Below are positions 17,092-44,323 of a DNA stretch of 64,000 nucleotides, in pieces. Location of the stretch: positions 1-64,000 of the forward strand of contig MU394159.1 of assembly GCA_022578605.1 (NCBI GenBank), read 5' to 3'. How positions within the stretch are numbered: the stretch's first letter is position 1; each line of letters starts with the position of its first letter. A program made the translations under genes and the position numbers. The notes under the pieces are model-generated. The model was not told the DNA's origin. It ran no database searches and saw nothing but the letters and a program-made list of their open reading frames with translations. Origin of the DNA: Camillea tinctor. Taxonomy: Eukaryota; Ascomycota; Sordariomycetes; Xylariales; Xylariaceae.

Positions 17092-18714
17092 ATGCTAACA
17101 AGAGTAGACACGGGCCCGTCACCATATAAATCAACATTACCGACACTCAGGCGCCGGACTTCCTGTGACTCCGGAGGATCGCAACACACAGACTACAACC
17201 TGTCACTGCGCATAGGTGCCGTATTCATCATTCTTTCGGTGTCCACATTAGCATGCGCGTTCCCCATTCTCGCAACTAAGTTTCCCGGGTTAAGAATGCC
17301 ATCGGATTTCTTCTTTGCTGTGCGCCATTTCGGCACCGGCGTCCTCATTGCTACGGCCTTCGTCCACCTTCTACCCACGGCATTCACTCTCCTAGGTGAC
17401 CCGTGTCTCTCATCCTTCTGGACGGTGAGTAATTTTGGGAGTCGTGTATCCCCCCTTTTGGCTTGTCTCAGCCCGGCTCGGGAGTCGAAATTGCCTATCA
17501 TGGTTAGGCGTATGAGTTGACTCCTGAGACACGGTCTCGAGGGCAAGAAAATTACCCAACATGGCAATTACTGACTCCCAGTTCCGTAGGACGACTACCC
17601 CGCAATGCCCGGTGCCATCGCTCTTGCTGGAATATTTTTCGTCACTATCATCGAGATGTTGTTACACCCAGCACGTAGCACACCGAGGTCAGAGACGACC
17701 GATTCACCTGAGCAACCTATTAGCGCCAAACGGCCATTACAGGGGAGACAGGAGAGCATTGGACGAAGTCTTTCGGGGATCGTGACGGGCGGCTATTCAA
17801 AGGACGAGATAACCCAGTGCGAGGCCTCGAACAACAATGAGAATAAAATTACGATGCAAAACGCCAAGGCTGGAGGACAAGGAAACTCTCCTGCCATCCT
17901 AACACCAGAGCAGAAGCATAAAAAAGAAATAATGCACTGTCTCCTCTTGGAGATGGGCATTTTATTCCATAGCGTTTTTATTGGTATGGCGTTAAGTGTG
18001 TCCATCGGTGGTAGCGAGTTCGTTGTTCTACTCGTAGCTATAACATTTCATCGTGAGTACCTAACTCCCCATACCTTGACAGGAATACTTAAGGGGGAGA
18101 TATTAAACATCAGCCAGAGACATTCGAAGGACTTGCTCTAGGGGCGAGGATTGCAGCTATTGAGTGGCCTAAGAAGAGCTCGCGACCTATTTTTATGGCT
18201 CTAGCTTATGGCTGCACGTATGTTTCATTCTACTTTTCTTCTACCTCCTCTTCACTTAAAATCTAATAGTATCACAGCACACCAATCGGTCAGGCTATCG
18301 GACTTGCTGCGCGGTCAGCATACAGCCCGGAGTCGGAAGTAGGTCTTATCTTGGTGGGGGTGATGAATGCAATAGTGAGTAAATTTTGGAATCGTTCATT
18401 CCCCCTTTTTGCCTGTATCGACCCAGCTCAGGAGTCAAAATTGACCATCATGGCTAAACGTATGACTTCGTACGACTTTTGACTCCTAAGACGCGGGTTT
18501 CAAGGGAACAAAAGTTACCTGATATGTCAATAGCTGACCCCCAACGTTGTAGTCATCGGGATTGCTAGTGTTCGCCTCTCTTGTTGAATTGTTATCCGAA
18601 GACCTTCTATCAGACGAAAGCTGGCGCGTATTGCGAGGGAGACGCAGAGTCTGTGCTTTCTTATTGGTCGTTGCTGGCGCGTTCGCTATGAGCCTCGTCG
18701 GAGCTTGGGCTTGA
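17092..18714 (+). CDS. ZIP-family zinc/iron transporter
   Basis: The 384-aa membrane protein is read from five exons: 17092-17424, 17590-18052, 18118-18217, 18278-18374 and 18553-18714. All phases close and the frame ends SLVGAWA. It matches the fungal ZIP permease pattern: LSLRIGAVFIILS (first helix), HFGTGVLIATAFVHLLPTAF (residues 79-98), a variable hydrophilic loop (~140-225), HSVFIGMAL (238-246), HQTFEGLALGARIA (from 265) and YGCTTPIGQAIG. The His/Glu in HSVFIG and HQTFEG are the metal-site residues known for this family. ZIP proteins bring zinc or iron into the cytosol; metal specificity is not determinable here. Introns 1 and 4 are introner-like elements; introns 2 and 3 (65 and 60 nt) are ordinary. 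The start at 17092 is the first in-frame ATG; a longer spliced N-terminus is possible. Confidence 0.85.
17425..17589 (+). repeat. Introner-like element, copy 1 (ZIP intron 1)
   Basis: Spliceosomal intron of 165 nt, phase 0, joining FWT to DDYPAMPG. It starts GTGAGTAATTTTGGGAGTC and ends ACTGACTCCCAGTTCCGTAG. It shares ordered blocks with the introns at 18375, 21277 and 43309, including ATCATGGTTAGGCGTATG. GGGAGTC near the donor and GACTCCC near the acceptor are inverted repeats; GGAGTC and GACTCC in the middle form a second, nested pair. The word GACG flanks the element on both sides, which could be a target duplication or chance. Confidence 0.88.
18375..18552 (+). repeat. Introner-like element, copy 2 (ZIP intron 4)
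   Basis: Spliceosomal intron of 178 nt, phase 0, joining VMNAI to SSGLLVFASL. It is homologous over its length to copies at 17425, 21277 and 43309. It carries a perfect 11-bp inverted repeat, AGGAGTCAAAA at 18430-18440 and TTTTGACTCCT at 18477-18487, with ATCATGGCTAAACGTATG in the loop. No flanking duplication is visible. Confidence 0.9.
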
Positions 18715-20059
18715 GTTCAAATAATAGCGTACGTGAATGTTATAACATTTATGTATACCTACCTAGGTACCTAGGTAATTATACTTATCTAAGATACCAA
18801 ATGGAGCTACTTCTAGACTGGTACACCCACCTCTTATTGCGATATTTGCATCCTTATCAACTGAGTACTCGTATCCATACACTCATTATAAAGGGACGGA
18901 ACCTCATTGATACAATACCTCATCACGATGGGTTGCTAATCAGTATTGTCTCTAATATATATTACTATATATTCCTATGTCGCCTATAAACTCTTGCAAC
19001 ATGGCAGATTAAATATCTAAAAGTCGCTCCCAATACGGAAAATGCTGCTTACAGCCCTTCGAGACATACTTAGTTGGCTTACTGAAGGGTTTAATAATGA
19101 CAGGCTACCTATGTGTATACTTAGGTCAAGCTGGTAATACAAGGTAACTTCAAGCACAAGATGGCACATATGCGTTTGAATGTCACCAATGATACCTGGT
19201 TAGTCCATAGATGTATACACAGTTGTCGGCAGAGGTGGGAGAAGGGGGATTCGATGATAACATTGCTTTTTTTTTCGTAAGTCATGGAACACTAAAACTT
19301 AAAGTATTCACGATATTATATTGAGGGGTGATGGGGTTTGATTCGAAGCACCCCCGTGAGAAGAAACGGGATATAGGAATCAGCAACACTGTGATCCCTA
19401 TATTCAGACGGGCTAATTTCTCGAATCAAGATATTGCCCTCTATATGAAGTTTTGCAGGTATAGTATAAGTAACCTAAGTTCAGTATAGTCGCACAATGT
19501 TCAAGTAATGATTACGAAGATGAATGATAATAAAATCTCCTACCTAATAAGGCCCTTGTTTTTGTGGTTAACGGCTAAGCCTGTTATCCACAATACACAA
19601 GCAGCAGCACATATACTATTGAACCTAGGTCAAGACATAAAAGGAACAGCAATTATAAACACCCAAGCATTGAAAATAAGAGAGATTATAAATCAACTGA
19701 TTTGGCGTATATATTTTCATACAATTGCTGAATAATACCCAGGCATACTGGAGTTGATTGTTATTCTCGTTGTTGTCCAGTAAAACCATGCTATCCGGGC
19801 AGCTCGTCCGCAAATTCGGCCGAACTGAGATATCCTCATTTAAGCATCGCAACCAACGTCAGCTCTTAGCCCCTGACCCTTCACCCAACGCTCCCCGCAC
19901 AGGCTTTTACATATAAATCTGGGTGCTGTTTGATATCATAACTTATACAGAGGTTAGAAGACTACTCGCACATCGATATTCTGTCTCTTGAGCACTCACC
20001 TGACAAAAATACCAATTTTGATACCCACTTCCGTTATTTCTAGAAGAGTGCCATAAACC
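18715..20059. other. Intergenic, AT-rich
   Basis: Gap of 1.3 kb between the ZIP and AIF-like genes. It contains a tandem of the palindromic word ACCTAGGT at 18761-18776, found again in many intergenic spots of the window. The frame at 19508-19735 is AT-rich and unconvincing. The last few hundred bases are presumably the AIF-like promoter. Confidence 0.5.
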
Positions 20060-21535
20060 ATGGCTCAAGATTCCCTTCCTACATTCCCTACGCCCCCCAA
20101 GGCCATTATCATTCTGGGTGGATCCTATGGTGGTATTTCTACGGCTCATTACCTACTCAAGCACGTAGTTCCTCGGCTCCCGGACAGCACTTCCTACCAA
20201 GTCATACTCGCCAGCGCCGCGACACAGGCCATGTGCCGCCCGGCCTGTCCACGGGCCCTTATATCTGACGACATGTTCCCACAGGACAAGCTCTTCGTCA
20301 ACATAAGGGAGGCCTTCGCGCAATACTCAGCCGGTGCCTTCCGCTTCATCCACGGCCACGGCCGTAGACCACGAAAACCGCACCGTGGACATCCGCCGCA
20401 CCGTGGGCGACTCCACGAAGGTAGACGCGGAGGCGGGAGAGCCGGCAACGCTTACGCTCAGCTACCATGCCCTCGTCATTGCCACCGGCGCCTCTACCCC
20501 GTCTCCGCTCCTCGGCCTCAACCGCGACGAGATCGCCCTGCGCGCGCACTAGGCCACGTTCCGGAGGGCATTGCCACGCGCGAAGCGCATCGTAATCGCG
20601 GGCGGGGGTGCCTCGGGGGTCGAGACCGCCGGCGAGCTGGGAGAGCATCTGAACGGCAGCGGCAGTAAGTCGCGAGACAAAGTCGACATCGTGCTCGTGA
20701 CGGGAGGGGCGCAGATCCTGCCGGGACTGCGCTCGAGCATTGCGCAAAAGGCCGAGTCGTACCTGGCACGGCTCGGGGTGACGGTGCAGAAGAACACGCG
20801 TGTGAAGAGTGTGGTGGTTGCTGGCGGCGATGGAGGAGCCGAATACGATACGGAGCGGGACGTCGCTTCTGCTGCGGTGGTCACGCTAGCCGACGGCGCG
20901 GTGATACAGGCCGACCTATATCTACCCGCGACAGGGACGCGGCCGAACACAGGGTTTCTTTCTCCCTCGCTGCTGGCGGTAGATGGGCGGGTCGAGACGA
21001 ATTCGGCCACACTGCGGGTTGATGGGGCAGGGCCGCGAGTGTACGCCATCGGCGACGCAGCGTCGTGGGCGCAACCTGCTGTGCATAATATATTGACCAG
21101 CGTTCCGGTGCTTTGCGCGAATGCGAAGCGCGATTTGCTTCTGGCTGCTGGAAAGGGGGGGAAGCCGGAGAATGGGAAAGTTTCGGCTAGTAGTACGGAG
21201 GACAGGGTTTTTAAGGAAGATACACGCGAAATGCAGATGGTCCCGATTGGAAGAAGTAAAGGAGTTGGTGCTGCTAGTAAGTACTTTTGGGAGCCATTTA
21301 TTCCCCTTTGCCCTGTCCTGAGAGTCAAAATTGCTTGTCATGGCTAAGCGTATGCGTTTTGACCCCTGAGACGCGATCTGAGTAAATAACTTACTTAATA
21401 TGGCAAATACTAACTCTACTCGTCACAGTGGGACATCGATTGCCTAGCTTCATGGTCTGGATGATCAAGGGGCGGGACTATTGGCTATGGTCGACTAAAG
21501 ATTTATGGAATGGGAAGCAGTGGGCTAAGGAGTGA
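20060..21535 (+). pseudogene. AIF/AMID-type FAD oxidoreductase, disrupted
   Basis: Conceptual exons are 20060-21276 and 21429-21535, separated by an introner-like intron. The N-terminus has the dinucleotide-binding IIILGGSYGGISTAHYLL. Later come YHALVIATGAS, the second Rossmann motif RIVIAGGGASGVETAGE, LPATGTRPNTGF, YAIGDAASW and a C-terminal FMVWMIKGRDYWLW typical of fungal AIF-like (AMID) proteins, NAD(P)H:quinone-type flavoproteins. Two lesions break the frame. One is a +1 shift near 20350-20365 in a repetitive ACGGCC stretch, compatible with loss of one 5-nt unit. The other is an in-frame TAG at 20550-20552 where Gln (CAG) would fit, a C-to-T change in a CpA context. The downstream part is otherwise intact with normal splice sites, so this is either a young pseudogene or two sequence errors. 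Confidence 0.75.
21277..21428 (+). repeat. Introner-like element, copy 3 (AIF-like intron)
   Basis: Intron of 152 nt, phase 1, joining GVGAA to MGHRLPSFMVW. It begins GTAAGTACTTTTGGGAGCC and ends ATACTAACTCTACTCGTCACAG. The core holds GAGAGTCAAAATTGC, GTCATGGCTAAGCGTATG and TTTTGACCCCTGAGACGCG. These are the same blocks in the same order as the other copies, with a short deletion in the middle and one between the C-tract and the core. Correct removal restores a family-typical C-terminus in the disrupted gene. Confidence 0.88.
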
Positions 21536-21789
21536 CAAGGCTGAAGGTATTAAGAAGAATATAATTGGGGGGGGAAGGGGGGTCATTGAATTTCGAAGGT
21601 TCTCGTACACGACTATAATATATCGCCCGTTGCAGTATGAAGGGCCAACCGTTAGAATAGGAGAAGGGGGGGGGGAGTTGTTCCACACATAGCTTAATAC
21701 CACTTGCTTTCATTGGATATATCTTACATCTTACACACTATTCAGTATAGACAACCATCAAAGTTCACCCATCACAAAGCAGCCTAGTC

Positions 21790-23097
21790 TCATTTTGACC
21801 GCCGCCACCGTTCGTTATTTGATTCGCCACGTCGCTCAGCTTCGAGCAGTGCATCAAAATCCCTTTGTGCTTGCTCCTTCTCGTATCCCCGTCTTTCCTT
21901 CTCCTCATCCTGACTCGAGTAGGAGAAGTCATCAGACTTAGGCGAAGCTTCCCTCACCGGATGAGTCCCATCTTCATTCAAATCTCCTCGTCCTCGATTC
22001 TGAGTAGCTACCTGAGCTTGCTTCCGAAGGCGTTCCCATGGCGACTCACTCGAGATATTCTGGGATTGCCTTGCTTCGGCGAGTCTAGCCGAGGGCGCAA
22101 CTGGTGACATATCGTCATCGTCATCGTCAAATGGATCAGAATCATCATGGGCTTCACGCTGCGTGCCGTGCTCGGGCGAGCGTGACTCTTCAGGATTTCT
22201 AGGGGTGGCCGGCGGGAAAGGGGTTCGAGCCCAATTAGGAGCTTTGTCTACCGTTGGGTTTTGCCGATCAAAAACATCTCTGGGCTGAGGGACAAATGCA
22301 TCACTATCATAATCCTGAGATGTGGAGTGTGAAGGCGAAGGCGAAGGCGAAGGCTGCCCGCTGAACTGAGGGGGCGGAAACCTGGGAGCGTCATTCCCTT
22401 GCGGGGGTCCTGCTTTCTGCGCTTGCTCCAGGACCCTGCCCCTTAACTGGCCATGTCGCGATCGATTGATGTCGTTAATCAATCCAGACAAGCGTCGGTC
22501 TCTCATCATATGTGCACGAAAGGAGGCTTCCGATGTTGAGGTAAGATAGATAGCAGTGCCAAGCCAACATAATGGACAATAGGCAATGAAACGTGCAAAA
22601 TGCCATAATGTAACTGCTCTCGGGCCGTTTACCAAGGGCCATGTCCTAGAAGGGAAAGAGTAAGGATCGAAGGTTCGCCGCTTGGGTTGGTAGAAGGGAA
22701 ATTTAAAAGTTGCACGTCTGAACCAGGCGAATCCGGCAGCGGCAGCAATGGACACGGGCTGAGTCCAGGCAAATTGACGGACGGAGCGTGCGGCGTGCTC
22801 ACTGACTGCATCTACTTCTGTAGCAGTTAAACGACGATGGGCACCGACAGAATGGCTGGTGACTTTCTTGAGCACAGATAGCACGTAGAAGCTCTCTCTA
22901 ATGAACAATAGCTGGCCCCAAAGCTGGACCCTGGGTAGTTGATCGAAGTGAATAGTGGCGCCGTCTTCAAAATACATACGTTCGATACGGCCCTGAGCAA
23001 AAGGTGTCACACCTGGCCACGGCGGGTTATGTGTAGGTTGGTCGTCGGTTGAGGACGGACCTCCCAGATCTTTGAAAAGCTCGGGATCGTCGATCAT
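21790..23097 (-). CDS. Conserved-looking fungal membrane protein, function unknown
   Basis: I do not recognise a named family. The single-exon frame gives 435 aa from the Met at 23097; an in-frame ATG seven codons upstream at 23118 is the alternative. Two hydrophobic stretches are possible membrane segments (QPVSIAAAAGFAWF and RFIAYCPLCWLGTAIYLTS). Between and before them lie aromatic and basic residues, including FKFPFYQPKRRTFDPYSF. The C-terminal half is hydrophilic: Pro/Ser-rich repeats (PSPSPSPS), an acidic run (DPFDDDDDDM), and a charged Glu/Arg-rich tail. The overall pattern, an ordered membrane part followed by a disordered charged tail, suggests an organellar or endomembrane protein. 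It is divergent from DNA2, with ~0.74 kb between starts. Confidence 0.7.
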   Translation of the reverse strand: MIDDPELFKDLGGPSSTDDQPTHNPPWPGVTPFAQGRIERMYFEDGATIHFDQLPRVQLWGQLLFIRESFYVLSVLKKVTSHSVGAHRRLTATEVDAVSEHAARSVRQFAWTQPVSIAAAAGFAWFRRATFKFPFYQPKRRTFDPYSFPSRTWPLVNGPRAVTLWHFARFIAYCPLCWLGTAIYLTSTSEASFRAHMMRDRRLSGLINDINRSRHGQLRGRVLEQAQKAGPPQGNDAPRFPPPQFSGQPSPSPSPSHSTSQDYDSDAFVPQPRDVFDRQNPTVDKAPNWARTPFPPATPRNPEESRSPEHGTQREAHDDSDPFDDDDDDMSPVAPSARLAEARQSQNISSESPWERLRKQAQVATQNRGRGDLNEDGTHPVREASPKSDDFSYSSQDEEKERRGYEKEQAQRDFDALLEAERRGESNNERWRRSK

Positions 23098-23832
23098 TTT
23101 TTGTTTTGGAGTGATCAATTACTTGATTCTATTGGGTAGGCCTCCATTTGTATGCGAAGTTTGATGTTTTACTAAGTATTAGGTAGAATGGACGGTAGAG
23201 ACGGGAAGAGAGGATAGAGGATGCAGGATGTAGAATGTATTCCATTATTAGGTAGGTTACGTAGGTGGGGTGGGGTGGGGTGATAGTAGGTGCTGTAAGT
23301 TTGGACCAATAAGAATCTTTAATTCGTAGGTTACCCTCTCTGCCTCTCTACCCCACTAACCCACCTCCAGATCCATAACCTTATTAAAGCTAAGCCACAC
23401 ATACCACAATTAAGTAAATTCATCAGGTGTGGCTTGACGCGTCTTATTGATTTCCCCACAATTTGAGGCGAGGGAGGAGGTGAATTGGATTTTTCCAATT
23501 CCCACAATCTTGAACGCGTGGGAGTCGCGTCGTTCCTATCCCAGTCCCAGTCCCAGTTCCAGTTCCAATTCCAATTCCAATTCCCGTCTCCGTCCCCATC
23601 CCCCCTCCCCATCTTTGAACATTTCCACTTACATTTGCATATTATTACCTGATCATTAACCTAAAGTTTTATTCAATTCAACCGGATAAGGCCTTCGTCC
23701 CGTCCCACACTGCCACCCATCATCATCCATTACTTACCTACCTACCCAGTGACGAGGTGTCTAGGTACATGCACATGCTATACCTAGGTAATCTCGTCTC
23801 CGCGATGGTTCAATGACTTCAACTCTGCCATC
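23098..23832. other. Shared promoter region between divergent genes
   Basis: 735 bp between the start of the unknown membrane protein (-) and DNA2 (+). It contains a tandem array of eight hexamers at 23539-23586 and ACCTAGGT at 23782-23789. No gene is seen. Confidence 0.6.
23539..23586. repeat. Hexanucleotide tandem array
   Basis: Eight contiguous 6-nt units that change stepwise along the array: three TCCCAG, one TTCCAG, three TTCCAA and one TTCCCG. Apart from the last unit the differences are C-to-T and G-to-A transitions. It lies in the divergent promoter upstream of DNA2. Confidence 0.85.
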
Positions 23833-26800
23833 ATGCCACTTCAGAAATCCTTTTCGGAGCAGAACGGCTCCTCTAGAGTACGTTAACTTATAAAAGTATG
23901 GCTGCTGAGAATCCTGGGGTATTTACTAACCCTTCCTACCGTAGAATCGCTCTCGTTGGCAGAAATCCAAGAGCTGCTCTACTGTCGGCCATTCCGTCGT
24001 AACTAATCCAAACACTAGACCCCTCGAACCCGTTTCCGATGTCACAAAAAACAAGCTCAACGCCTTCAACTTCAAGCCTCAGGCGAAGGCCTCCGCAATG
24101 CCAAGGGACGAACGCACGCGAGCCGGATCATCCCGTGGTAGCGATTCTACCGGCCCTAGCCAGCCTATCGAGCATGATACCGACGAGTCGACCCCCCCTG
24201 TAGTATCTAAGGATGCCACCACACCTGTGAGTCGCCTAGCGTGGCAGGACCTCATTGGCATGTCCGAGGTTAGGGAAGAAGAGGAAGATGTCAGTCCAAG
24301 CGACAGGTTAGGGTGGGATACCCGAGATCATTCGATCTACAAACTATCGCCCGTGATGCCACGCAAGAAAGGGAAGAAGAGAGCGCGTAGTTCCTCTCCT
24401 GCTTCATCACCCGCGACCCGGTCGAAATCAAACACTCCGGCCGTCAACATCAAGAGGCTTTCAGCAGCCCTCAAATCGCCACACGCAGACCCGGCTCTCG
24501 AACTATGGGATCGCTTCTCCCACAGCGACTCCACGTCATCCGCCTCTCTCGGCACTACGAATCCCGCCCTAGCCCAGATAATGGTGTCATGTTCGCCCCG
24601 GCCCTCCAGAGTTACAGGAGGTGCGCCGAGTGAAAGCAGTCTACGAAGAGCAATCAGCTGCGGAGAACACTGGCCAAAACGTCGCAGGATGGAACGAGCC
24701 GAATCCGGGACAACAATAATGGCTGCTATAGTCGACGGCAGTCCGAGTCGCAACTCGAAATCGTCTATGGTCAACGCCTTGCTGCAGAGCGTTACGGGGG
24801 AAATCAATAAGTCAAAGGCTATTCAGACGCGCCAGGAAGTTCTAAGGTCCCCCTCGCCACGCAAAAAGCGCCAGGGTCCAGCTGTAGAGGCTTCAGGCTC
24901 GCCTATTCGACGACGCTCCCCCGCTAAGCAGCCCCCACAATCTTTTATCGAGGAGCCTATAGAAAAGACAGGGCAGCCAAAGTCGGTCACCCATATGAAC
25001 ATGGATAACTCATCAGATTACGGTGACGAAGATTTTGACGACGACGCGCTGATGGAACTTGACGCGAAGCTAAGTTCTACTCAGCAAGAGCCTTCGCTAT
25101 TTTTGCCCCTACCTCCGGACACAGGACAAACGAAGGATCAACCCACAAACCCACAACCTATCCTAAATGACGATGATTTTGCAGACTCAGACGATGACAT
25201 ATTTGCCGCCGCCGAAGATCTTGTCTCGCAGATCGACTCGGTCCATCGTCCACAGAACATTGCAGATAGCCCGGTGGTTCCGGTTGATGAATCGATGTCA
25301 GCCGCCGGTCCCAAAGACATAGCAGAAGACATATACGAGGATGATTTCAGCGATGACTTTGATTTTGAAGCAGCCGAAATAGCCGCCACACAGTCAGTCA
25401 AACAGACCAAGGAGTCCATAACTCTTGTACGTAGGTGATGGTAGGAACGCGCTCAGACTTTTGCTAAGATGGTTCGTAGCCTGCCCACAAACCTAAAGCA
25501 ATTCAACGATATCTAGTGACTAAAGTCCTACAAAGCCAATATACCGATGCCCATGGACGAGAGGCACCGGAAAAGGTAAGATTCCGATGATAATCGTTTT
25601 GTGATCTAGCCGCTAAGAGCCTCAGATCTTGTTTATTGAACTCGACCGGACCAACATCATGAAGACCGTGCACCTTCGGGAGGATTGGGTCGATACGCCC
25701 GCGAGCCCAAAATCATACGTCCACATAATAGGCGGCTTCCAGACATCTGGGCAATGCATCATAGACAACTCCCAGAACATCCTCATATTGCATCCAGATC
25801 AGTTGATCTCCGCCACGGTAATCGCAGATAGCTTTACATGTACGCGTAGGGCGGTGCTCCAGGACCGTATCAAGGCGACAGGCGCCCCAAGCCCTCCCCT
25901 CGTCTACGGTACTTTGCTTCACGAGATATTCCAGGAGGCGCTTTTATCAAACCAATGGAGTCTAGAATTCCTAGGCAGTCTTATTTGCAAGATAACCGAG
26001 AAGCATGTGGAAGACCTCTATATGATCAAAGTGTCAATGGGCGATGCTCGCGAGCATCTTCGTTCAAAGATGGCTGAGTTGAAGTCCTGGGCAGCAGCAT
26101 TCGTCACAGCGTTCCCAAGGGTATCATTACCTCCCCAGCCATGTTTAGAAGTATTGCACTAACATGATTTAGCCCGACGCCGTCGTCCAAGGCCGAAATG
26201 GAGAGAAAGCAAATATGTGCATCACCAAGCTATTGGATGTCGAGGAACATGTGTGGTCTCCGATGTACGGAATGAAGGGTAATATCGATGCGACTGTGCA
26301 AATTATCATGAAAGATGGATCTCAAAGGCGTACACTTACTGTACCGTTTGAAGTCAAAACCGGCAAACATGCCACGCACAATCACAAAGCCCAAACATCA
26401 CTTTATAATCTACTCCTGTCGGATCGCTATGATGTCGAGATTGCGTATGGTGTACTATACTACATGGAAACATCTACGACTATTCGAATCCCCACTGCCC
26501 GAAACGAGCTCCGGCATATGATCATGCAACGCAATCAACTAGCTGGCTATATTCGAGAACGCGGTGTCCAGCTTCCGCCCATGAAACAAAACAAAAATAC
26601 CTGCGGCAAGTGTTATGCCCAGGTACCCTGCTTCATATACCACAAGCTCGCAGATAACGGTGATCAGGAGACCAGTGGGTTAAAAGAACAGTTTGACGAG
26701 GTTGTTCAACATTTGACGCCGAAACATCAGGAGTTCTTTTTAAAGTGGGAGGATCTGTTGACCAAAGAGGAGAAGGAGAGCCAAAAATTGCGACGGGAAT

Positions 26801-34900: not shown

Positions 34901-34959
34901 ATAAGACACCCCGACACACTTGTACTTAGCCTACTTGATTCCTGCCGCGTTTGCCCATC
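28981..34959. other. Gene-free stretch with many homopolymer and pyrimidine tracts
   Basis: About 6 kb between DNA2 and the GDS1-like gene. It contains repeated ACCTAGGT-type words (29601, 29788, 30062), C/T-rich stretches (30120-30180, 32380-32400), a T21 run at 32751-32771 and other T-rich runs to 33360. The last ~500 bp before 34960 are C/T-rich, as in many fungal promoters. The frames present are made of low-complexity residues and I support none of them. It may hold non-coding transcripts that cannot be recognised from sequence alone. Confidence 0.5.
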
Positions 34960-36217: not shown

Positions 36218-38287
36218 GCGTCTTAGCTGGACTTATGATACCATTTTTAGTCAGGGGCTTACACAGCTGTTGTTAGACGCGGGTCTGAAAACAATGGCTG
36301 GCGCGTCGGGGAAGTATGTGTACGATGAAAAAGAGACTTCAGAATTGCGTTTAACACCAAGCGGGGAGTGGGGCGATTGGCGTATTTGTTTCTATGAAAA
36401 GAGCCCCGCTTTCTCTCTTATTCCTGCATTTGGTTTCTCTTCGTTTATCTTGTTGGTCTATCCTGAGTATAGGATGACCAAGATATCTACTCCTTTGGCA
36501 TTTATTTCGCTAGTTAGAGACAGAAGATCTGTACGACTATGCTAGATGAAGCGCTTGGGCTGGCGGTTACAGGTGTTGGGTTAGGTCGCATTAAAAAACG
36601 AGCTGCGGGACTTGTCTATAAATGGGTGGCCAATAATGGCAATCTGGGGGACCCTGCAGCATCCACGCATGCACGATCTCTTGTTTTTTTTTTTTTACAT
36701 TCTTTTTTCTTTTTTATGAGATTCGGATACCATATCATTCGATGTTACGAAAGGACGAATTAAGATGAGAGAAGACAAGAAGAAGAAAAGTTTCAAGAGG
36801 GACATCGCAGTGGATAACTAAAAGGAGCAAAAAAGCGTCTGGTTACTACAAATAAGTGTACATGTAGAGCAAAAACAGAGAGGAAGGTATTGGAGTAGAC
36901 AAAAGAAAAAAAAAAGCCAAGCTAGACGCGAGAACATGCGAATAATAGCTAGAACTCTTCTCATCTAACTAGAATCTATTTTACTACATTAGCGCCAAAA
37001 GCGCTCGTACCGAAGAGCGGTCAAGGTGAATTTATGTATACGTTGGAAGAGGCCAAAAGGAAAAGAAGAAAGAAAGGAGAGAGAGAGAGAAAAGAAAACG
37101 GAAAGGAAAACTAGGGCGTATTGGTCGGTCATCGGGCGACCTGCTCCGTTGATCGGTGTTATTACCATGAGAGTATTAGTTTGGGCGGACTGCCGAAGAA
37201 GAAAAATGCTCCAATTCTATTAGTTGTACGTATATTGTGTAGTATGGGAAATCAACGGGTCTGGGGGGAAGAAAACCTGATTTGACAATGGCTTGCCTAG
37301 TTGATGGCTTTTATTTGGCGTTTCTGATCTCGGGGGTATGTACAATGTAACCTACACACAACTGACACTACTATTGTCACTACGCACATGGCACTAGAGC
37401 CTATCTATAGATACGTACATAAAGTAAACAACTTGATACATGTATAATTAAACGAGTTCGTTGTGATATATTGGATATCTTTAGCGGACTGGGTTGCCTT
37501 TTTTTAATACTTTCTCTTATTGATTTGGTTGGGGTTTGAGTCTCGGGTTGATCAAGATGATGGATGTGTTGTACATACGTACATTTCTAAATGACGAATT
37601 ATGGATGTGCCGTACGTAAGGACTTGGAGCATAACATCAAAGAGAGTAAGGAAGAAGAAGATAGGGAGTAATGGGATAGGAATAGGGCGGCGGGTTGGAT
37701 TGGGTACTGAGACGAACCTATGAGGCGGATACACGCACTCACACTTGCATAAATTACCCAGATGGGATGGAAAGGGGGGGGGCAGTTTGAATCCTGTTTG
37801 TTTATTCGTTTATCAAGACAAATTAGACATATCGTGCGTTAGATATGGAGGCGGAAGACTACGTATGTAATTTCTATCTTATGACTGGTATAAGCTAACT
37901 TGATCCCTCTTTATTTGCGCCCATACAGTACATCAATTAGCATTTAACCCATGATGTATAGAGGGGGTGAGTAGGAGGCATGTTGGTAAGTATATAGGTA
38001 GGTACGTCATGCCTATACCTCCTTTTTCCATCTATAAGGGCACCTCTACCCCGCTACCCGCTCCCCTTTATTATATACATAGAGTAGGTACATATAAAAT
38101 ATATTTTATATACGTAGGTAAGTATGGTTATCACTTATGGCAAATGAGAAATAGGTGTAGAACATGCAAGTAGTCTTTTTGTATTCTCCCTCCTCCTTTT
38201 TGTACGTCTTACAGTGCACCAAGCCCGTTCCTACTATGGATAGTTTTAGAAATATACGACTCTTTAGTTACCTATATTTATATACAG
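36218..38287. other. Intergenic, convergent 3' ends, low complexity
   Basis: 2.1 kb between the stops of the GDS1-like and OMS1-like genes. It contains purine-rich tracts (36770-36920, 37050-37110), T-runs, and a 20-bp perfect palindrome at 38092-38111. No gene is supported. Confidence 0.5.
38092..38111. repeat. 20-bp perfect AT palindrome
   Basis: ATATAAAATA is followed directly by its reverse complement, with no spacer. It lies ~180 bp beyond the stop of the OMS1-like gene, where 3'-end signals would be expected. Its role is unknown; perfect palindromes of this size can also arise by chance in AT-rich DNA. Confidence 0.8.
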
Positions 38288-39859
38288 TTAATCTTTTGGA
38301 TCGCCATCTCGTTTCTTCACGGAGAGAAATGATCCCGAGGAGGATGTGGGAGAAGAGGTAGAAGAAGAAGACGATGATGATGAGGACGACGGTGACAAGA
38401 AAGACACCCAACCCTTCTTCTCCCCCTCCTTCCCCACCTCCACTACCTCCCCACCGCCACTCTTCTTCTCCCCCTCCATCACATGCCTAACCCCCAGTTC
38501 GATGAGGACGTGCGTACCTAAGGTGATCCACCCAGGTCTCTCTAGGCGACGGACCTCAAGACCGGGAACCCTACGTTCAGCCTCACGCACGATGGCCTCG
38601 ACATCGCGGTTCCACCAGCAACCAAAGCGCGCGAAATGACCCCGCGCGCTGCGATCTAGCATCCCATTAACGACCTCCCACCAGTTGCTGCGGCCGTGCT
38701 CGAGCAGTAGGATGCGACCCTCGTCGCCTGGGCGTACGGCACGCGCGAGGTTGGCGATCAGCGCTACCGGGTCGCGCACGCTGCAAAGGCCAAAGGTCTG
38801 GAGGATGGTGTCATAGTATTGCGGGGGAGGGGGAGAAGACAGGTTGGGAGTTGATGGGACAACGGGTGGGGAGGGAAGAGAGGGGGATTGAGCGTCGCTT
38901 TGGAAGATGCGAATGCGATTCGAGACGAGAGAGACCACAGGGGCTGTAGTAGTAGTAGTAGCCTTGTTGACACCTGTAGTAACAATTGTATTTACAGATG
39001 TCACTGTAGAGGCCAATTGTGCAAAGGAGGGCTTCTTGGGTATGCTATCTACCATGTGTGGGACGACCTGCCTTATCCGTTGCAAGGTGATGTCTAGCAT
39101 AGATGGAGAGATATCGAGGCCCGTGAAGCTTAGTATAGCACTTTGGTCCTCTTCATTTGTCTTAGGGGTCTTGTTAACGTGACCCTTCGTCTGCCACCAC
39201 AGTGCAGCCCTTTGATTCCTCTCTTCCGGAGAGACCAGTCCTTCGATTACCTTGTCCCAGTTATAGAATTCGAGGTTACGCCCCGTACCGACGGCGATTT
39301 CAAGCACGTGGCCCCGCGCTTCGGCTGCCATATGCCGACGCAGTTTTGTAATTGAATAGCGATACTCGGATTTGTCGAGATGCAGGTCAAACTCATAAGG
39401 CGACTGAACCAACGGCCTACCAGTAGGCACCTCGGGCTCGCAGCCCAGGGGGTAGCTTGGGGCAGGCTCATCAGAGAGCCAGTGTACGACTGAGCTCGCC
39501 GTAAAGAAGCCGATGCATATTGTTGCAGCGCCAACGCCAAACAATGCGAACCATCGGTTCTGTACTAATTCCGCAACAGGCTGCTTTGCGTTGGTGCTAG
39601 CTCCCTCATTACCACTGACAGCCTGAGGCTCCCTCGCAAAGGTCAACTTGAAAGGAAGGGGTTTGTGTGCGGGTGCTTTTGGCCCCCTAGCCCCTCCTCC
39701 TTTTACTGGCCGCTCTCCAGTTGATCGTGATGAGGAAACGTGGCGCCGGCAGCTTATTCTCACCGCCCGAGAGGTGCTGAAGATATCACCACCACGTAGC
39801 GCCCGGGACCAGCACCAGGCCACTTTGACAGCACGACGATGCATGCATTTAGACTGCAT
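38288..39859 (-). CDS. OMS1: OMS1-like mitochondrial methyltransferase
   Basis: Single-exon frame of 523 aa. The N-terminus is rich in Arg/Ser without acidic residues (residues 1-50), as in a mitochondrial targeting signal. A single membrane segment follows at about 103-128 (WFALFGVGAATICIGFF). The S-adenosylmethionine-binding motif VLEIAVGTGRNLEFYNW lies at 185-201, then FTGLDISPSML, YYDTILQTFGLCSV and GRILLLEHGRSNW, the order seen in class I methyltransferases of the OMS1 group. Yeast Oms1 is an inner-membrane protein linked to respiratory-chain RNA or assembly functions; the exact substrate is unknown. The C-terminus ends in a long Ser tract encoded by a TCC/TCA-type triplet microsatellite, probably variable between strains. 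It shares a ~1 kb divergent promoter with the IMPACT-family gene. Confidence 0.82.
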   Translation of the reverse strand: MQSKCMHRRAVKVAWCWSRALRGGDIFSTSRAVRISCRRHVSSSRSTGERPVKGGGARGPKAPAHKPLPFKLTFAREPQAVSGNEGASTNAKQPVAELVQNRWFALFGVGAATICIGFFTASSVVHWLSDEPAPSYPLGCEPEVPTGRPLVQSPYEFDLHLDKSEYRYSITKLRRHMAAEARGHVLEIAVGTGRNLEFYNWDKVIEGLVSPEERNQRAALWWQTKGHVNKTPKTNEEDQSAILSFTGLDISPSMLDITLQRIRQVVPHMVDSIPKKPSFAQLASTVTSVNTIVTTGVNKATTTTTAPVVSLVSNRIRIFQSDAQSPSLPSPPVVPSTPNLSSPPPPQYYDTILQTFGLCSVRDPVALIANLARAVRPGDEGRILLLEHGRSNWWEVVNGMLDRSARGHFARFGCWWNRDVEAIVREAERRVPGLEVRRLERPGWITLGTHVLIELGVRHVMEGEKKSGGGEVVEVGKEGEKKGWVSFLSPSSSSSSSSSSTSSPTSSSGSFLSVKKRDGDPKD

Positions 39860-40872
39860 TGCGATCCTGTCAGGCCAGCTAGCCAGCTCACCTCACAGCA
39901 AGGTAATCGCCCCGCCAAGCACTCAGCCAGGCCGTTACTTGTTCAATGGACCGCACGTGCGGTTCTTACACCGACTTGGAGGGGAAACAAGCCAAGCAGC
40001 CCAAGTCAAACCCGACTAATAAGAGAAGCTTCTGGTCCAAGCTCCTCCCTATACCAGGTTCCCCAAAGGCAGGCAAGACAAGACACAGGATCTGCTTGCT
40101 CAAGATGACAATAACGATGATACCGGGTAAATAGCTAACTCGTCTTCAGATTAGCATGGCTCTCGATCCATTACACGAGAACCCGATAGGCAGCAGCTGG
40201 CAGAGATCGTGGCGATCTGCTTTTGGTTCGGATCCAAGCGAACAGGCGAGGCAGTTAGGCTGGGGTGGCCCCCCCAACCGATTTCAGATCAGTGGGTTGG
40301 TTGATCTCACGGACAAATACCCATGCGGCGGTAGTGTTTGGTTTTGATATATAGTGTATAGGTATATGGAGCCCAGCCCAGTGAGACAGATTGAGTGGCG
40401 ATCGCTCGAACCAAAAGCCTTGTTGTGATTTGTTGGTGATGTTTTATAATATATCAGATACAGATCGCCATTGGGTGGAGGGAACTTGGTCCGGGAGATT
40501 TTGGAGACAAGATCAAGATACAGTATAGGTTTACTGTATGTATAGTCTATATATACTGTCGCCGCAAATACTTACCTAACCTAGTACGTAGAGAGGCTTG
40601 AGGGGGGTTCCAGGGGGAGGGGACAGGCTCCAAACTCAAAATGAGCACGGGCCAATATATGGTAGCTAGTATAATGTATTCATGCAGCTGCTCCCCCGAT
40701 GACGCACAGTCTTGGCAACATTACATAATATGCACCTACATGACCTTCCCGAGGTCCCAAGGTCCCGAGATCTTCAGCTCCTCAACGCGCCCTCCTAAAT
40801 TTGATCAATACCCACGACACCTTGATAACACCATTGATAATAACAACGTGCCGTCGCGGCCAGCCCACACCG
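39860..40872. other. Divergent promoter region
   Basis: 1.0 kb between the starts of the OMS1-like (-) and IMPACT-family (+) genes. Several short open frames are present, none with family features. Most of it is probably promoter and 5' UTR. Confidence 0.5.
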
Positions 40873-42616
40873 ATGGCTTCCCAGCAGGACCTTCAGGACC
40901 TTATCCGGCTAATGACCTTGGGCATGAGAGTTCCCATCAAAGACGCTTTGGTTCGCATCAAGGTTCTCCAGGCCGAAGACCTACGCAGGTAGGTTATGTA
41001 TGTTATAGACAAGCACAAACTTCGTCTGAGAACTAACTATATTTAATTCTATCAGCATTCAACAAATCGCCGACAGTTCTCTTGCTCATATCGAATCTGC
41101 CCTCAAAGACCCCAAAGCTGCCCGATCCCTCCACAATGCCTGCAAAGCCCGGCTGAAGAATCCCAGTGCCTCTTCTGCGATTAAAAGATCCGCATCCGAC
41201 CTCGCAAGCGATTCGAAACGCACCAAGTCGTCTAGTCGTAGCGGTCCCCTTGGCGGTCCAGACCCTCTCTCGCCTCAGGAGTTCGAAGCATCCCTAGAGC
41301 TCCCCGTAGAAATCGACGAGGATGTGATCAGCAATACCATATTATTGACGAACCGTGCCCCCTTGGTGCTCGCCTTCGCCGTAGAGCTTCTACGGTATAC
41401 AATGCCTGAGCAACCCCCTTCGAGTCGCTTAAGCTTGGCACAGGCCGTCGTCAGTGCCAATTCACGAAGTAAGGCTGTCAATTTGGGCATAGAGAAAGGG
41501 CCGAGTGCCGACGAAGAAGGCTGGGGTCGAGGGCAGCCGAAGATGAGGGTATTGGGGCGAGAAGTTACAGTATTGAAGAGGAGCGGCTACGAATGGAAGG
41601 GGGATGAAGGGGTTGACCGTGAAAAGAGTCCTTCAGGGACCAAGAGCGAGGATAATATAAAGGATACGTCGAATGCGGCAGAATCGGGAGGCATCGATAC
41701 CCAAAGCATGCCTTCTAATATACCTGCAAGTCAAGCACTGAGATGGACTGCAAGTCAGCCCGTCACTCTAAAGGGTTCAAGATTCATTGTTCGTGCGACC
41801 AGCCTAACAGAAACCTCTCAACGCCAGTCGGCGTTGCAATCTCTGTTTTCAGCCATTCCATCACTTGAGACAGCAACACACAATGCCTGGGCATATCGGG
41901 TCAAAGTGCCCACGAATTTATTCAATGCTACCACGATCAAAGAGGATTCCTTTGATGATGGCGAAACTGGATGCGGTGACTTCCTACTCAAGAATATGCG
42001 TGAAACGAATGCTGTCGATACGCTAGTCGTAATGACGCGTTGGTACGGAGGGGTAATGCTAGGGCCAGATCGCTGGAGGATCATGCGAGATTGCCTGAAG
42101 GACGCCCTAGCAGAACGCTTACGAGTCACTGGGGAGCAGGCAACACTAGGCAACGAGGCTGTCTGGGGTCTCGACCTAGAGGCCATGAAAAATAAATCTG
42201 GGTCGACCGAGCTTGCATCCAGTCGGTCTTATGGATCTGGAGTGGTGGGCATGCCAACCCACAGGCCGGAAGCAGCAAGGGCATATCTATTCAAGAGTCT
42301 CGCCACTAGAATCGAAGCTCCCGAAGAAAGCAACGCTAGTTCAGCCGGAAATGATAAAACAAGAGCACTCCCGAAGAAGAAAACGGCTAAAGTATTAGAG
42401 CTTGAAAAGGAGGAAAATGTTGCACGGCTGCTCGGGGCCATTAGACTATTATTCGAGAGTTGGGCCGGACATCTTAGTGCACCAGACCTCGACCGGCGTG
42501 CTTGGAACTGGTACGTTGCGATCCGACCAGAAGTCGAAAGTGGACCTTCAGGTTGGGGTGCCAAGGGCCAGCTCAAGTTGGCAGATATTCTAGCGTTGAG
42601 ACGGAAGGCTGACTGA
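40873..42616 (+). CDS. IMPACT (UPF0029/YIH1) domain protein
   Basis: The 558-aa protein is read from exons 40873-40988 and 41056-42616; the 67-nt intron (GTAGGT...ATCAG) joins EDLR to SIQQIADS in phase. The IMPACT signature is in the middle: FIVRATSLTETSQRQSAL, then DDGETGCGDFLL and TRWYGGVMLGPDRWRIMRDC (about 364-383). In yeast Yih1 and mammalian IMPACT this domain binds Gcn1 and restrains Gcn2, but other IMPACT proteins have unknown roles. No RWD domain is visible. Instead there is an N-terminal helical region (1-80) and a long Lys/Ser-rich linker (160-230), so this is not a simple Yih1 orthologue. A C-terminal helical part (EKEENVARLLGAIRLLFESW and WNWYVAIRPE) appears conserved-looking. 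A function in translation control is only a possibility. Confidence 0.8.
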
Positions 42617-42931
42617 TCATTGTATTTTCTTGTTTTCAACACTCGATACCCCCGGTTCATGTATGGTGTTCGGCGTTCACGAGGGTTTGGTAAAGTTCTA
42701 CATGGGATTCTAATATTAGAAATGGGATTGGTGCTAGTGAAAAGAGAACCAACATATTATCATGTCCTCAGGCTTGCTAGTCATCTATAACTGAACCATA
42801 TCCATGGTCTAGGACGCTGTTACTAAACAATAATTCTTAGGATATCGTACCTGCCTACCAGTTTTTGTAAAGCCAAAAATGTTTACGGGCCGGCCTGACT
42901 CTTAAATACCGAATCAACAATCATTAATACC
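42617..42931. other. Short convergent intergenic
   Basis: 315 bp between the stops of the IMPACT-family and MDR genes; probably only 3' UTRs. Nothing else seen. Confidence 0.6.
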
Positions 42932-44323
42932 TCAACTAGACCTACCTTCTACATCCCTTATCACTTCATCGCTGGCAATCTGGATCAGGTGAGACCCAAT
43001 ACCCGCGCCTTTGCCCCAGCCCCGGTGTGCTTCCTGGATGTCTTCCATCTGCCAGATGCTCTTGATATTGACGTCGATTTTACCCTCCTGCACCAGTGCA
43101 AACAAGGAGCGCAGGTTCGGCTGGAAAGTAGAATCGTCCCGCGTGATATAGTAAAATGATGTACGCCTCTTCGTGAACAAGTTGGTATTACGAAGTAAAA
43201 GCTTAACCATTGGACCCACGGTAGAGAAACCTGAGGGTTTGGTATTGCTGTTCCCACCTGGGGACGACGAAGAGCCGGGAAGTGATTGCAGATTCGATCC
43301 GTACCCCACTGTAATAATGGGAGTCAGCAATTGTCATATTAGGTAGCTTTTGTACTTTTAAGACCGTGTTTCGGGAGTTGAAACTCGTACGAACTTGTAC
43401 GCTTGGTCGTGATAGGAAATTTTGACTCTCGGGCCGGGTCGAGACAGGCCAAAAGGGGGGAATGGACCACTCCAAAAATTGCTTACCGAGAATGCCAGGC
43501 TCATCACCCACGGGAAGGATCTCGTACGACTCATCCCAGCTCCTAAAGCCGAGCGGATCGAAGACAGCATGCGCGCCTCCGAGCACTTGCATCGCACCTA
43601 TCCATTCCTTATTGCCGTAGTCGAAGACACCGGCTGCTCCTGCGGCTAGCACTGCCTTGTGATTCTTCGGCGATGCCGTCCCGTACACAGAGGCCCCACG
43701 CAGCCGACACAACGTGGATAGCGCGGACCCTACGGCGCCACTGAGACCGTGCACGAATACCCGCTGTTTCGACTGCACATCTGCTGTCTGGAACACCATA
43801 GCATAGGCTGTCGCCCAGTCAAGCACAAGTGCGGTAGCGTGCCGTGGGGAGATGCCCGCTGGGACGCGCACAGCGTGCTTGGCGGGCAGGTTCACGAGTG
43901 TGGCCTCGGCATCGTAGACGGTGAGGCTGGCGACAAGGTCGCCTGGCTGGAAGAAGCCAGATGTAGTCTGCACAACGAGCCCCACGAGGCAGTAGCCCGG
44001 GGTCAGGGGCGCTTTGCGCTGCACTAAAATATTGGTGTCAGTAATTATTATACCAAATAACCTCTCGACCCATGAAGCAGACTTAAAGGGGTAATAGGGG
44101 GCTTCCGAGATTACTCACTCGGGTATACACCCTGGCGCATGTTAACGTCAGCACCCGAGAAACCGGCATACAGCGGAGCGACTTGGACTTCTCCCTCGCT
44201 AGGAGCCGGAATCGTGCTCTCTTCTACGTGGACCTTGGAGGCATCGCCGAACTCTGAGATGACAACCTTGCGGATAGGCGTGACTGAGGAGTTAGAGGAA
44301 GATTTACTAGGGCAAGTGAACAT
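42932..44323 (-). CDS. Zinc-free MDR oxidoreductase (quinone oxidoreductase-like)
   Basis: The 372-aa protein is read from exons 44323-44119, 44023-43487 and 43308-42932; the phases close as YP-MQRKAPLTPGYCLVG and GIL-VGYGSNLQSL. The N-terminal GroES-like part starts RKVVISEFGDASKVHVEE, and GADVNMRQGVYP fits quinone oxidoreductase-type members. The nucleotide-binding fold has FVHGLSGAVGSAL with GLSGAVG at 161-167. The C-terminus has LFALVQEGKIDVNIKSIWQMEDIQEAHR. The catalytic-zinc ligands of alcohol dehydrogenases are not seen, so NADPH-dependent quinone or enone reduction is the likely chemistry. A TATA-like stretch (TTTTATATATAG, plus strand, near 44465) lies ~140 bp upstream. The second intron is an introner-like element and the first is a probable decayed relative. 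Confidence 0.82.
43309..43486 (-). repeat. Introner-like element, copy 4 (MDR intron 2)
   Basis: Intron of 178 nt on the minus strand, phase 1. It starts GTAAGCAATTTTTGGAGT and ends TTGCTGACTCCCATTATTACAG. Inside are ATTCCCCCCTTTTGGCCTG, CTCGACCCGG, GAGAGTCAAAATTTCC, AAGCGTAC and ACCTAATATGACAATT. These match the order of blocks in the copies at 17425, 18375 and 21277. It lies 22 kb from the nearest other clear copy and on the opposite strand, yet is in the sense orientation of its host gene. Confidence 0.9.
44024..44118 (-). repeat. Probable decayed introner-like element (MDR intron 1)
   Basis: Intron of 95 nt, phase 1. The start GTGAGTAATCTCGGAAG, the CTATTACCCCTTTAAGTCTG block and the end AATAATTACTGACACCAATATTTTAG each resemble the matching part of the clear copies. 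The central hairpin region is missing. I read it as an internally deleted member; chance similarity of intron ends is the alternative. Confidence 0.5.

Follow-up and report, generated by a model that had tools for sequence, protein, structure and literature searches.

The genome of Camillea tinctor (Xylariales) contains a family of introner-like elements (ILEs) whose insertion prefers YA|TG in the host sequence, that is, a CATG- or TATG-like site. It is best explained, and probably so, as an old ILE family with a preference for YA|TG and a palindromic ancestor, perhaps spread by RNA-dependent insertion and now apparently inactive. The origin of new spliceosomal introns is a long-standing open question; if some arise by way of RNA, fungal ILEs are among the foremost candidates. 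In the available text of published accounts, reported insertion motifs are either none (Hypoxylaceae, Xylariaceae) or splice-site-like (AG/GY in Capnodiales). New here is a duplication-free family that combines a strong motif unlike the splice-site consensus with a near-complete hairpin ancestor, and it is filed as a new ILE family with an unusual motif, compared with known ones by description. It offers two handles on mechanism: the recogniser of YA|TG and the possible need for a hairpin in copying.

Four copies and their host genes

The window is a 64,000-nucleotide stretch of contig MU394159.1 (GenBank assembly GCA_022578605.1), in which four homologous introns had been predicted in three unrelated genes. 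Their coordinates proved right (Table 1), and the hosts do encode unrelated proteins, namely a ZIP zinc transporter, an AIF-like FAD oxidoreductase and a zinc-binding dehydrogenase. The introns align from donor to acceptor and are homologous end to end. Of the sequence blocks said to be shared by all four, the order is kept throughout, but some blocks are missing in introns 1 and 3: both lack the TTCGTACGA stretch in the alignment of the four, and in intron 3 the C/T-rich GCCTGT stretch is incomplete as well. Allowing up to 3 mismatches, the core block was matched three times in the window, where shuffles give 0.01. The copy at 43309 has diverged too far to be caught by this pattern, and its membership is confirmed by alignment and profile; the first copy scores 154.6 bits against the profile. 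The family profile misses the two ordinary introns (18053-18117 and 18218-18277) that accompany the two family copies in the ZIP gene.

Table 1. Family copies and host genes in the window
Feature	Position	Strand	Length	Phase	Exon junction	Host or product
Introner-like element 1	17425..17589	+	165 nt	0	CG|GA	ZIP zinc transporter gene
Introner-like element 2	18375..18552	+	178 nt	0	TA|TC	ZIP gene, second copy
Introner-like element 3	21277..21428	+	152 nt	1	TA|TG	AIF-like FAD oxidoreductase gene
Introner-like element 4	43309..43486	-	178 nt	1	CG|TG	Zinc-binding dehydrogenase gene
ZIP zinc transporter gene, part read up to stop	17140..18714	+				P0121, Pfam Zip
AIF-like FAD/NAD(P)-binding oxidoreductase gene	20060..21535	+				P0241; hosts the third copy
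Zinc-binding dehydrogenase gene, part read	43000..43800	-				P0001, 372 aa; hosts the fourth copy

Splicing of the window copies rests on public gene models of C. tinctor. Removal of all four introns agrees with these model proteins (not RNA), as had been expected: the reconstructed spliced products match P0121 (496 aa, the C. tinctor match to the ZIP gene product; two junctions), P0241 and P0001 at 100% identity, with 100% of each query covered. In the FAD oxidoreductase gene, inspection by eye showed a frameshifted region with an in-frame stop upstream of the copy (about 20360-20552), which suggests either a pseudogene or an error in the assembly.

Family size and intron anatomy

Far more than four related introns are present in the genome, which bears out the predicted introner-like family, and the proposition that only these four exist therefore fails: 77 copies were verified by profile in the searched part of the genome. 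Pattern searches on both strands of the whole genome marked 149 places, 73 of them with stronger support (evidence of at least two kinds, or a match by BLAST), and the total family size is estimated at roughly 120 copies. The verified copies, in unrelated genes, resemble one another along their whole length as far as the two splice sites. Both ends were resolved in 69 of the 77; the other 8, in which the profile stops short of the 5' end, were omitted, and for 11 of the 69 the first YAG past the profile match served as the acceptor. An alignment of 45 copies comprises 43 that reach both ends of the profile at E<1e-30, together with two window copies.

The copies fall into two length classes, of about 157 nt and about 178 nt, separated by two 10-nt stretches. 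Shortened forms of 55 and 59 nt also occur. Some genes carry several family copies; copying within a gene was considered and rejected, the 11 same-strand pairs at most 3.5 kb apart being no more alike than average (mean similarity percentile 0.29; one pair spans two window genes). Four exact matches to the core in viral contigs were judged to be chance, and an Rfam search of 17300-21600 gave no match at E<=1.

Typical copies are whole, canonical introns of the U2 type, with donor GTRAGT, a branch-like CTRAY and acceptor YAG. Nearly all resolved copies (67/69) begin with GT, the distance from the branch to the 3' end is 14 nt in 50/69, and only the splice signals are invariant among the 45 aligned copies. 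Judged by these signals, the family members are predicted to be functional canonical spliceosomal introns.

Seamless insertion in the sense direction

At all ten junctions compared with homologues (4/4 in the window and 6/6 further), no gap is present, and codons are neither gained nor lost. In the ZIP gene, 29 aligned proteins (own included, as in the following counts) lack a gap at each of the two junctions. The third copy divides a Met codon, the Met being common to 24/24 aligned proteins, and the fourth divides a Val codon at which 36 aligned proteins are gap-free and have V or I. Target-site duplications of up to 8 nt were sought in any register around the 69 copies, and flank identity was not above that of shuffled flanks, no variable duplication being detected; the flank test is blind to a short duplication of fixed sequence, but the homologue alignments nonetheless show no extra codons.

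For 63/69 copies the sense direction gives a longer spliced frame than the antisense (p=4e-13), so that the predicted sense orientation is upheld as far as could be judged; the 6 exceptions were judged by eye. No antisense or intergenic copy was shown among the 69, although the pattern searches extended to both strands of the whole genome. Among 20 random junction peptides, 9 had a sense Pfam match across the junction and 10 had no Pfam match at all. A home-made codon-usage test, which scored sense above antisense in 57/69 copies and had upstream and downstream frames agreeing in 48/69, was set aside as too weak. The window copies are in phases 0, 0, 1 and 1, as the original prediction had it. 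Across the family, phase 1 accounts for 42/69 copies, above one third (p=4e-6), with the choice of frame doubtful at a few GC-rich loci (e.g., C21:492544); the excess over ordinary introns (13/31) is not clear (p=0.09).

The YA|TG motif

TG directly follows 43/69 copies against a background of 6.1%, and A|TG is found at 27/69 against 1.7%. Among predicted ordinary introns, the corresponding values are 2/31 and 1/31. This control is small and itself predicted: its 31 introns come from the two strands together, and a single reversed strand already yields 5 calls; perhaps about a third of the 31 are therefore false. Not every copy conforms, and the first in the window has a junction that differs from the preferred motif.

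That TG might be part of the element is ruled out by the third window copy: since the Met that it splits is common to all 24 aligned proteins, the YA|TG motif is host sequence. A copy at C5:501175 also splits a Met, one present in HMCES (6oe7), but it is weaker evidence because the best PDB match, 2f20, has Phe. Complementary flanks that would extend a hairpin showed no excess over permutation; YA|TG is thus a fixed motif rather than a set of covarying pairs. The target is itself close to palindromic.

A palindromic ancestor

The family consensus (177 nt) is an end-to-end palindrome, nearly its own reverse complement, with terminal inverted repeats that are imperfect and near full length. Its predicted fold has an energy of -59.2 kcal/mol (z=-5.6), and a near-terminal stem runs from donor nucleotide 5 to 2 nt before the 3' end. 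The consensus of the 157-nt subfamily is also palindromic (-62.4 kcal/mol); judging from divergence, this subfamily would be older than the form of about 178 nt.

Individual copies retain this symmetry to different degrees. Folds with z below -2 were obtained for 24/45 aligned copies, and single copies vary (z of -4.0 in L010, -1.8 in L016 and -1.6 in the window copy at 43309). Inverted-repeat symmetry fades with copy divergence, and neither a conserved RNA structure (RNAalifold) nor covariation was found in the aligned copies. Because copies lose their symmetry without covariation, the palindrome probably served copying, not splicing.

Comparison with known families

The ILEs of Dothideomycetes (Capnodiales; van der Burgt, Torriani, Collemare) are, in the available text of their descriptions (PMC4457414, PMC8469720, PMC3443670), likewise complete U2 introns in unrelated genes, seamless, in the sense direction, free of target-site duplications and endowed with a stable predicted structure. 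They come from another order, and the likeness is one of description. In contrast to them, no near-identical copies were found in the C. tinctor family, and its YA|TG motif differs from the AG/GY preference cited for the Capnodiales elements in those excerpts.

Sister stwintrons and cropped introns of Hypoxylaceae and Xylariaceae (Fekete and colleagues, 2021, 2025) come from the same order as C. tinctor. As far as the available text of these reports goes, they likewise have end-to-end or near-terminal inverted repeats with a stem near donor nucleotide 5, weaker symmetry in divergent copies, internally shortened forms, and seamless insertion with no duplications. Unlike [D1,2] sister stwintrons, the C. 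tinctor copies are single rather than nested (0/69 nested), and they show a phase 1 excess. The available portions of PMC8469720 and PMC12403724 describe the published Xylariales families without an exon motif.

Mechanism of insertion

RNA-mediated insertion appears to be the likeliest mechanism, with a chance that we put at about even. Excised intron RNA would form a hairpin and reverse-splice into a transcript or R-loop DNA, after which reverse transcription would fix the intron in transcribed coding sequence; some local recognition of YA|TG would guide insertion. The family passed through at least two master forms, probably first of about 157 nt and then of about 178 nt, and the near-complete inverted repeat of the ancestor decays after insertion of a copy. 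Reverse splicing alone does not predict YA|TG, and inverted-repeat ends with a palindromic target would equally suit a DNA transposon.

Mobile group II introns provide a precedent, in which intron RNA inserts free of duplications at a preferred short site. Tentatively, site-guided seamless insertion at YA|TG, in many cases within an ATG codon, by a hairpin ancestor might be a spliceosomal counterpart of such intron retrohoming, with the intron RNP or a partner nuclease recognising the target; if so, YA|TG would be the footprint of the insertion machinery. The analogy is mechanistic only: the C. tinctor copies have spliceosomal signals, and, unlike in group II introns, no encoded protein or ribozyme core was seen in them.

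Fekete and colleagues proposed that double-strand-break repair captures a symmetrical, debranched intron RNA, which spans the break within an exon and is then copied into DNA. In the available text of PMC8469720 and PMC12403724, the stwintron families that prompted this model share the seamless insertion and near-terminal stem of the C. tinctor copies, and symmetry fades with divergence here too. This model, however, predicts random sites, against the strong YA|TG bias, and leaves the excess of sense copies within genes unexplained unless the breaks come from transcription; we regard it as unlikely for C. tinctor.

Somewhat less likely again is a non-autonomous fold-back, MITE-like DNA transposon whose ends hold the donor and acceptor and which inserts bluntly at YA^TG. 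The self-complementary consensus and the near-palindromic target would suit it, and most introners outside ascomycetes show signs of DNA transposition (PMC9860276, available text). The DNA-transposon introners of algae and protists (Huff; Gozashti 2022) share inverted-repeat ends, internal splice sites and occurrence in many genes. The C. tinctor copies differ from these in that no duplication was detected in their flanks and none of the 69 was shown outside genes or antisense, although unbiased insertion should leave many such copies. Unverified end matches on C1-C22 are single short matches with no longer element seen; four left-end matches among them were inspected, one being a 59-nt mini copy and three looking unrelated. 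The available text of Gozashti 2022 reports ascomycete introners without TIRs and TSDs, and the C. tinctor inverted repeat therefore departs from them.

It is very improbable that the elements were once [D1,2] stwintrons, or cropped forms of them, and make up a late branch of the Hypoxylaceae type. The order is the same, and the near-terminal stem and the usual 14-nt branch distance resemble those of Xylariaceae stwintrons. The donor-splitting arrangement (G|intron|T, between nucleotides 1 and 2) is nevertheless found in 0/69 copies, which led us to reject the elements as [D1,2] stwintrons; moreover, the printed 10-nt elements look different, and the published stwintron families show no exon bias. 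Ordinary old introns, alike by chance, conversion or gene descent, are favoured only by the high divergence of some copies and can be virtually dismissed, given the donor-to-acceptor similarity across unrelated genes, the two length classes with their two 10-nt differences, adjacent copies no more alike than distant ones, and an exon motif absent from predicted ordinary introns.

Age and decay of the family

The original prediction of an active or recently active family is unsupported. The genome-wide searches did return many homologous introns, but not the near-identical ones anticipated, the best pair among the 69 copies being 88% identical and the mean 70%. For the copy nearest the consensus, the best other match is 87% (40 scored out of 79 candidates in a whole-genome search). 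Families thought to be active reach 98-99% identity, according to the available text of PMC4457414. The C. tinctor family now looks inactive, though a young subfamily may lie beyond the profile-searched part of the genome. The gap in near-identity bears on activity rather than membership, because known inactive families show it as well. One way to read the spread of copy ages, the 55- and 59-nt forms and the multi-copy genes together is as introners fading into ordinary introns; Capnodiales ILEs likewise decay towards ordinary introns in the available descriptions.

A genome-wide family of related introns

The four window introns lie where the original prediction had placed them and align from donor to acceptor with their blocks in a common order (see table), part of the first C/T-rich stretch being absent from intron 3 and the TTCGTACGA stretch from introns 1 and 3. 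The core motif matches three times in the window against 0.01 expected, which is beyond chance. Removal of the introns had also been proposed to restore protein; the spliced products are 100% identical over the full query to the public C. tinctor proteins P0121 (ZIP transporter), P0241 (FAD oxidoreductase), and P0001 (dehydrogenase), an identity that reflects agreement with the depositors' gene models and is not an independent RNA test. All four junctions are gap-free in alignments of 29 (ZIP), 24 (FAD oxidoreductase), and 36 (dehydrogenase) proteins, hand-picked from match lists and including C. tinctor's own protein in each set.

Family copies and associated features (window positions, or contig:position elsewhere)
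Feature	Position	Strand	Remarks
Intron 1	17425-17589	+	ZIP zinc transporter
Intron 2	18375-18552	+	ZIP zinc transporter
Intron 3	21277-21428	+	AIF-like FAD oxidoreductase
Fourth intron	43309-43486	-	Zinc-binding dehydrogenase
Frameshifted stretch with in-frame stop	20360-20552		FAD oxidoreductase gene, upstream of its introner; omitted from the P0241 model
ATGAGT donor	C74:52268-52443
ATGAGT donor	C20:612591-612746
Shortened copy, 59 nt	C16:486755	-	Locus L074; left end joined to right end
Shortened copy, 55 nt	C64:207412-207466		Left end joined to right end
Close pair	C65:41591-41767 and 41785-41938	same	Only 17 nt of exon between
Copy splitting a Met codon	C5:501175

Camillea tinctor belongs to the ascomycete order Xylariales. 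Its genome comprises 154 contigs totalling 44,688,122 bases, of which the window's contig, C109, accounts for 87,626. The nearest relatives of one window protein beyond C. tinctor itself belong to Biscogniauxia (75-85% identity). This genus is absent among the 120 matches listed for P0241 and present in the lists for the other two host genes.

The predicted extension of the family beyond four copies was borne out by searches of the whole genome. BLAST with the 43309 copy gave at least 41 matches (the best 40 of 50 candidates being scored). On both strands, the left-end pattern matched 73 times (3 when reversed), the right-end pattern 73 times (none when reversed), and the core pattern 85 times (23 when reversed). 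Merging all patterns yielded 149 places, 73 of them backed by BLAST or by at least two lines of support, and a profile search of the marked places on contigs C1-C22, 30 BLAST loci, and the window verified 77 copies at E<1e-6. Within C1-C22, 49 of the 63 pattern places were verified, and four further copies appeared only in fetched flanks. Scaling from the share of these contigs (about 46% of the genome, from lengths summed by hand with C12 guessed) gives an estimated total of roughly 120 recognisable copies.

Places on the same strand form nine pairs with a spacing of up to 2 kb, where 0.46 would be expected; thus, some genes took several copies. Because neighbouring copies are no more closely related to each other than average, this suggests separate insertions. 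At the C65 pair, the short exon is possibly a micro-exon made by two insertions. Local excesses were seen on C74 (seven marked places in 195 kb) and C109 (five in 88 kb), the genome average being about 3.3 per Mb.

Intron anatomy

Both ends could be resolved in 69 of the 77 copies, with the acceptor taken as the next YAG past the profile match in 11. Donors are GTGAGT (58), GTAAGT (8), GTAAGC (1), and ATGAGT (2); acceptors are CAG (46), TAG (22), and AAG (1); and in 50 copies a branch-like CTRAY stops 14 nt short of the 3' end. An alignment of 45 copies, with 75% mean pairwise identity, is invariant only at G1, T2, A4, and G5, at one T and one A in the branch motif, and at the terminal AG. Judged from sequence, such constancy of splice signals amid divergence should be expected of functional introns that drift at their other positions. 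The two ATGAGT copies may have AT-AG ends, a shifted donor, or lost splicing. The two shortened copies are the size of ordinary introns in C. tinctor.

A predicted ancestral hairpin

The 177-nt consensus comes close to being its own reverse complement, and its predicted fold (-59.2 kcal/mol; z=-5.6; none of 300 shuffles equally stable) runs from end to end apart from 4 unpaired nucleotides on the donor side and 2 on the acceptor side. The 16 shortest copies give a 157-nt consensus that is missing two 10-nt segments present in the long form and folds at -62.4. Among single copies, z falls below -2 in 24 of 45, and the more a copy departs from the consensus, the weaker its fold (rho=-0.67, a trend that the construction alone would partly produce). 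Conservation differs little between paired (85%) and unpaired (81%) columns, covariation is absent from the 45-copy alignment (paired cells 84.4% versus 84.3% predicted under independence), and RNAalifold found no conserved base pairs in it. Since the consensus folds and pairing is not conserved, the modelled hairpin is best read as a feature of the ancestors, lost once the elements were inserted.

Insertion sites

For 63 of the 69 copies, the longest open frame across the spliced junction in sense exceeds that in antisense (median 251 versus 98 codons); the other six were assessed by eye, one or two being uncertain, and no intergenic or antisense copy was shown among the 69. Half of 20 randomly drawn junction peptides have a Pfam match in sense, the other half having none. 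Nine matches cross the junction (SDR, ZIP, GST, FAD-binding, P450, BTB, tannase, Chromo, and NadN C-terminal), and the tenth, a Dyp peroxidase, starts four residues past it. Six further junctions, selected for conserved enzymes, were aligned to solved structures (SRAP/HMCES protein, S28 protease, uracil phosphoribosyltransferase-like protein, SDR, GST, and methyltransferase), and none has a gap at the junction; the phosphoribosyltransferase match is weak and shows a gap two positions beyond the junction residue.

Insertion favours a YA|TG motif. The base after the intron is T in 57 of 69 copies (21.6% in adjacent exon sequence), TG follows in 43 (6.1%), and A|TG spans the junction in 27 (1.7%), with information confined almost wholly to positions -2 to +2. 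In the window, TG follows two of the four copies (21277 and 43309). Among 31 predicted ordinary introns at the same loci, TG follows two and A|TG occurs once (Fisher p=6e-8 and p=9e-5, the control being small and partly false). As the searches drew solely on intron sequence, ascertainment does not account for the motif; nor does a codon effect, since G at +2 is frequent in phase 0 (7/11), phase 1 (27/42), and phase 2 (11/16). Met makes up 20 of the 42 codons split in phase 1, against 1.9% overall, and A|TG is more frequent in the long class (23/47) than in the short (3/16; p=0.04). The codon split at 21277 is ATG, and its Met is common to all 24 aligned proteins, by which comparison the insertion motif is host sequence. 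The Met split at C5:501175 also occurs in HMCES (6oe7), the best PDB match having Phe there.

Route of insertion and relation to known families

No target-site duplication was detected, left and right flank identity not exceeding that of shuffled pairings at any register or length tried. Together with sense placement in genes and seamless junctions, this speaks for a route that depends on transcripts or RNA rather than ordinary DNA transposition, the reading put forward for fungal introner-like elements in the portions available of PMC8469720, PMC3443670, and PMC9860276. Reverse splicing of an intron, then reverse transcription, would provide such a route, and we put its chance at about even. 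Capture of intron RNA at breaks is unlikely, and an unusual DNA transposon somewhat less likely still.

The near-terminal stem occupies a position similar to that in Xylariales stwintrons, as far as these are described in the accessible text of PMC12403724. Unlike published Xylariales families, for which the sections seen of PMC8469720 and PMC12403724 report no exon bias, the present family has an exon motif; for Capnodiales introner-like elements, an AG/GY insertion preference is cited in the text available. The papers listed on C. tinctor, Graphostromataceae genomes and introns, Xylariales introners, and (from 2022 on) introner insertion motifs and splicing held no recognisable description of the family. 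Neither PMC9860276 nor PMC12403724 mentions Camillea in its main text; their supplements may list it unnamed.

Age of the family

The family had been thought active or recently active, a view that the copies do not support: mean identity among the 69 is 70% and the best pair reaches 88%, whereas fungal families thought active reach 98-99% (PMC4457414, in the part available). For the copy closest to the consensus, the most similar other copy among the 40 candidates scored genome-wide is 87% identical; a young subfamily could conceivably lie elsewhere in the genome. In the 45-copy alignment, changes from the consensus are mainly transitions, and C-to-T changes preceding A and G-to-A changes following C each stand at 17.7%, against 7-14% in other contexts, which may reflect a mild RIP-like or methylation effect.
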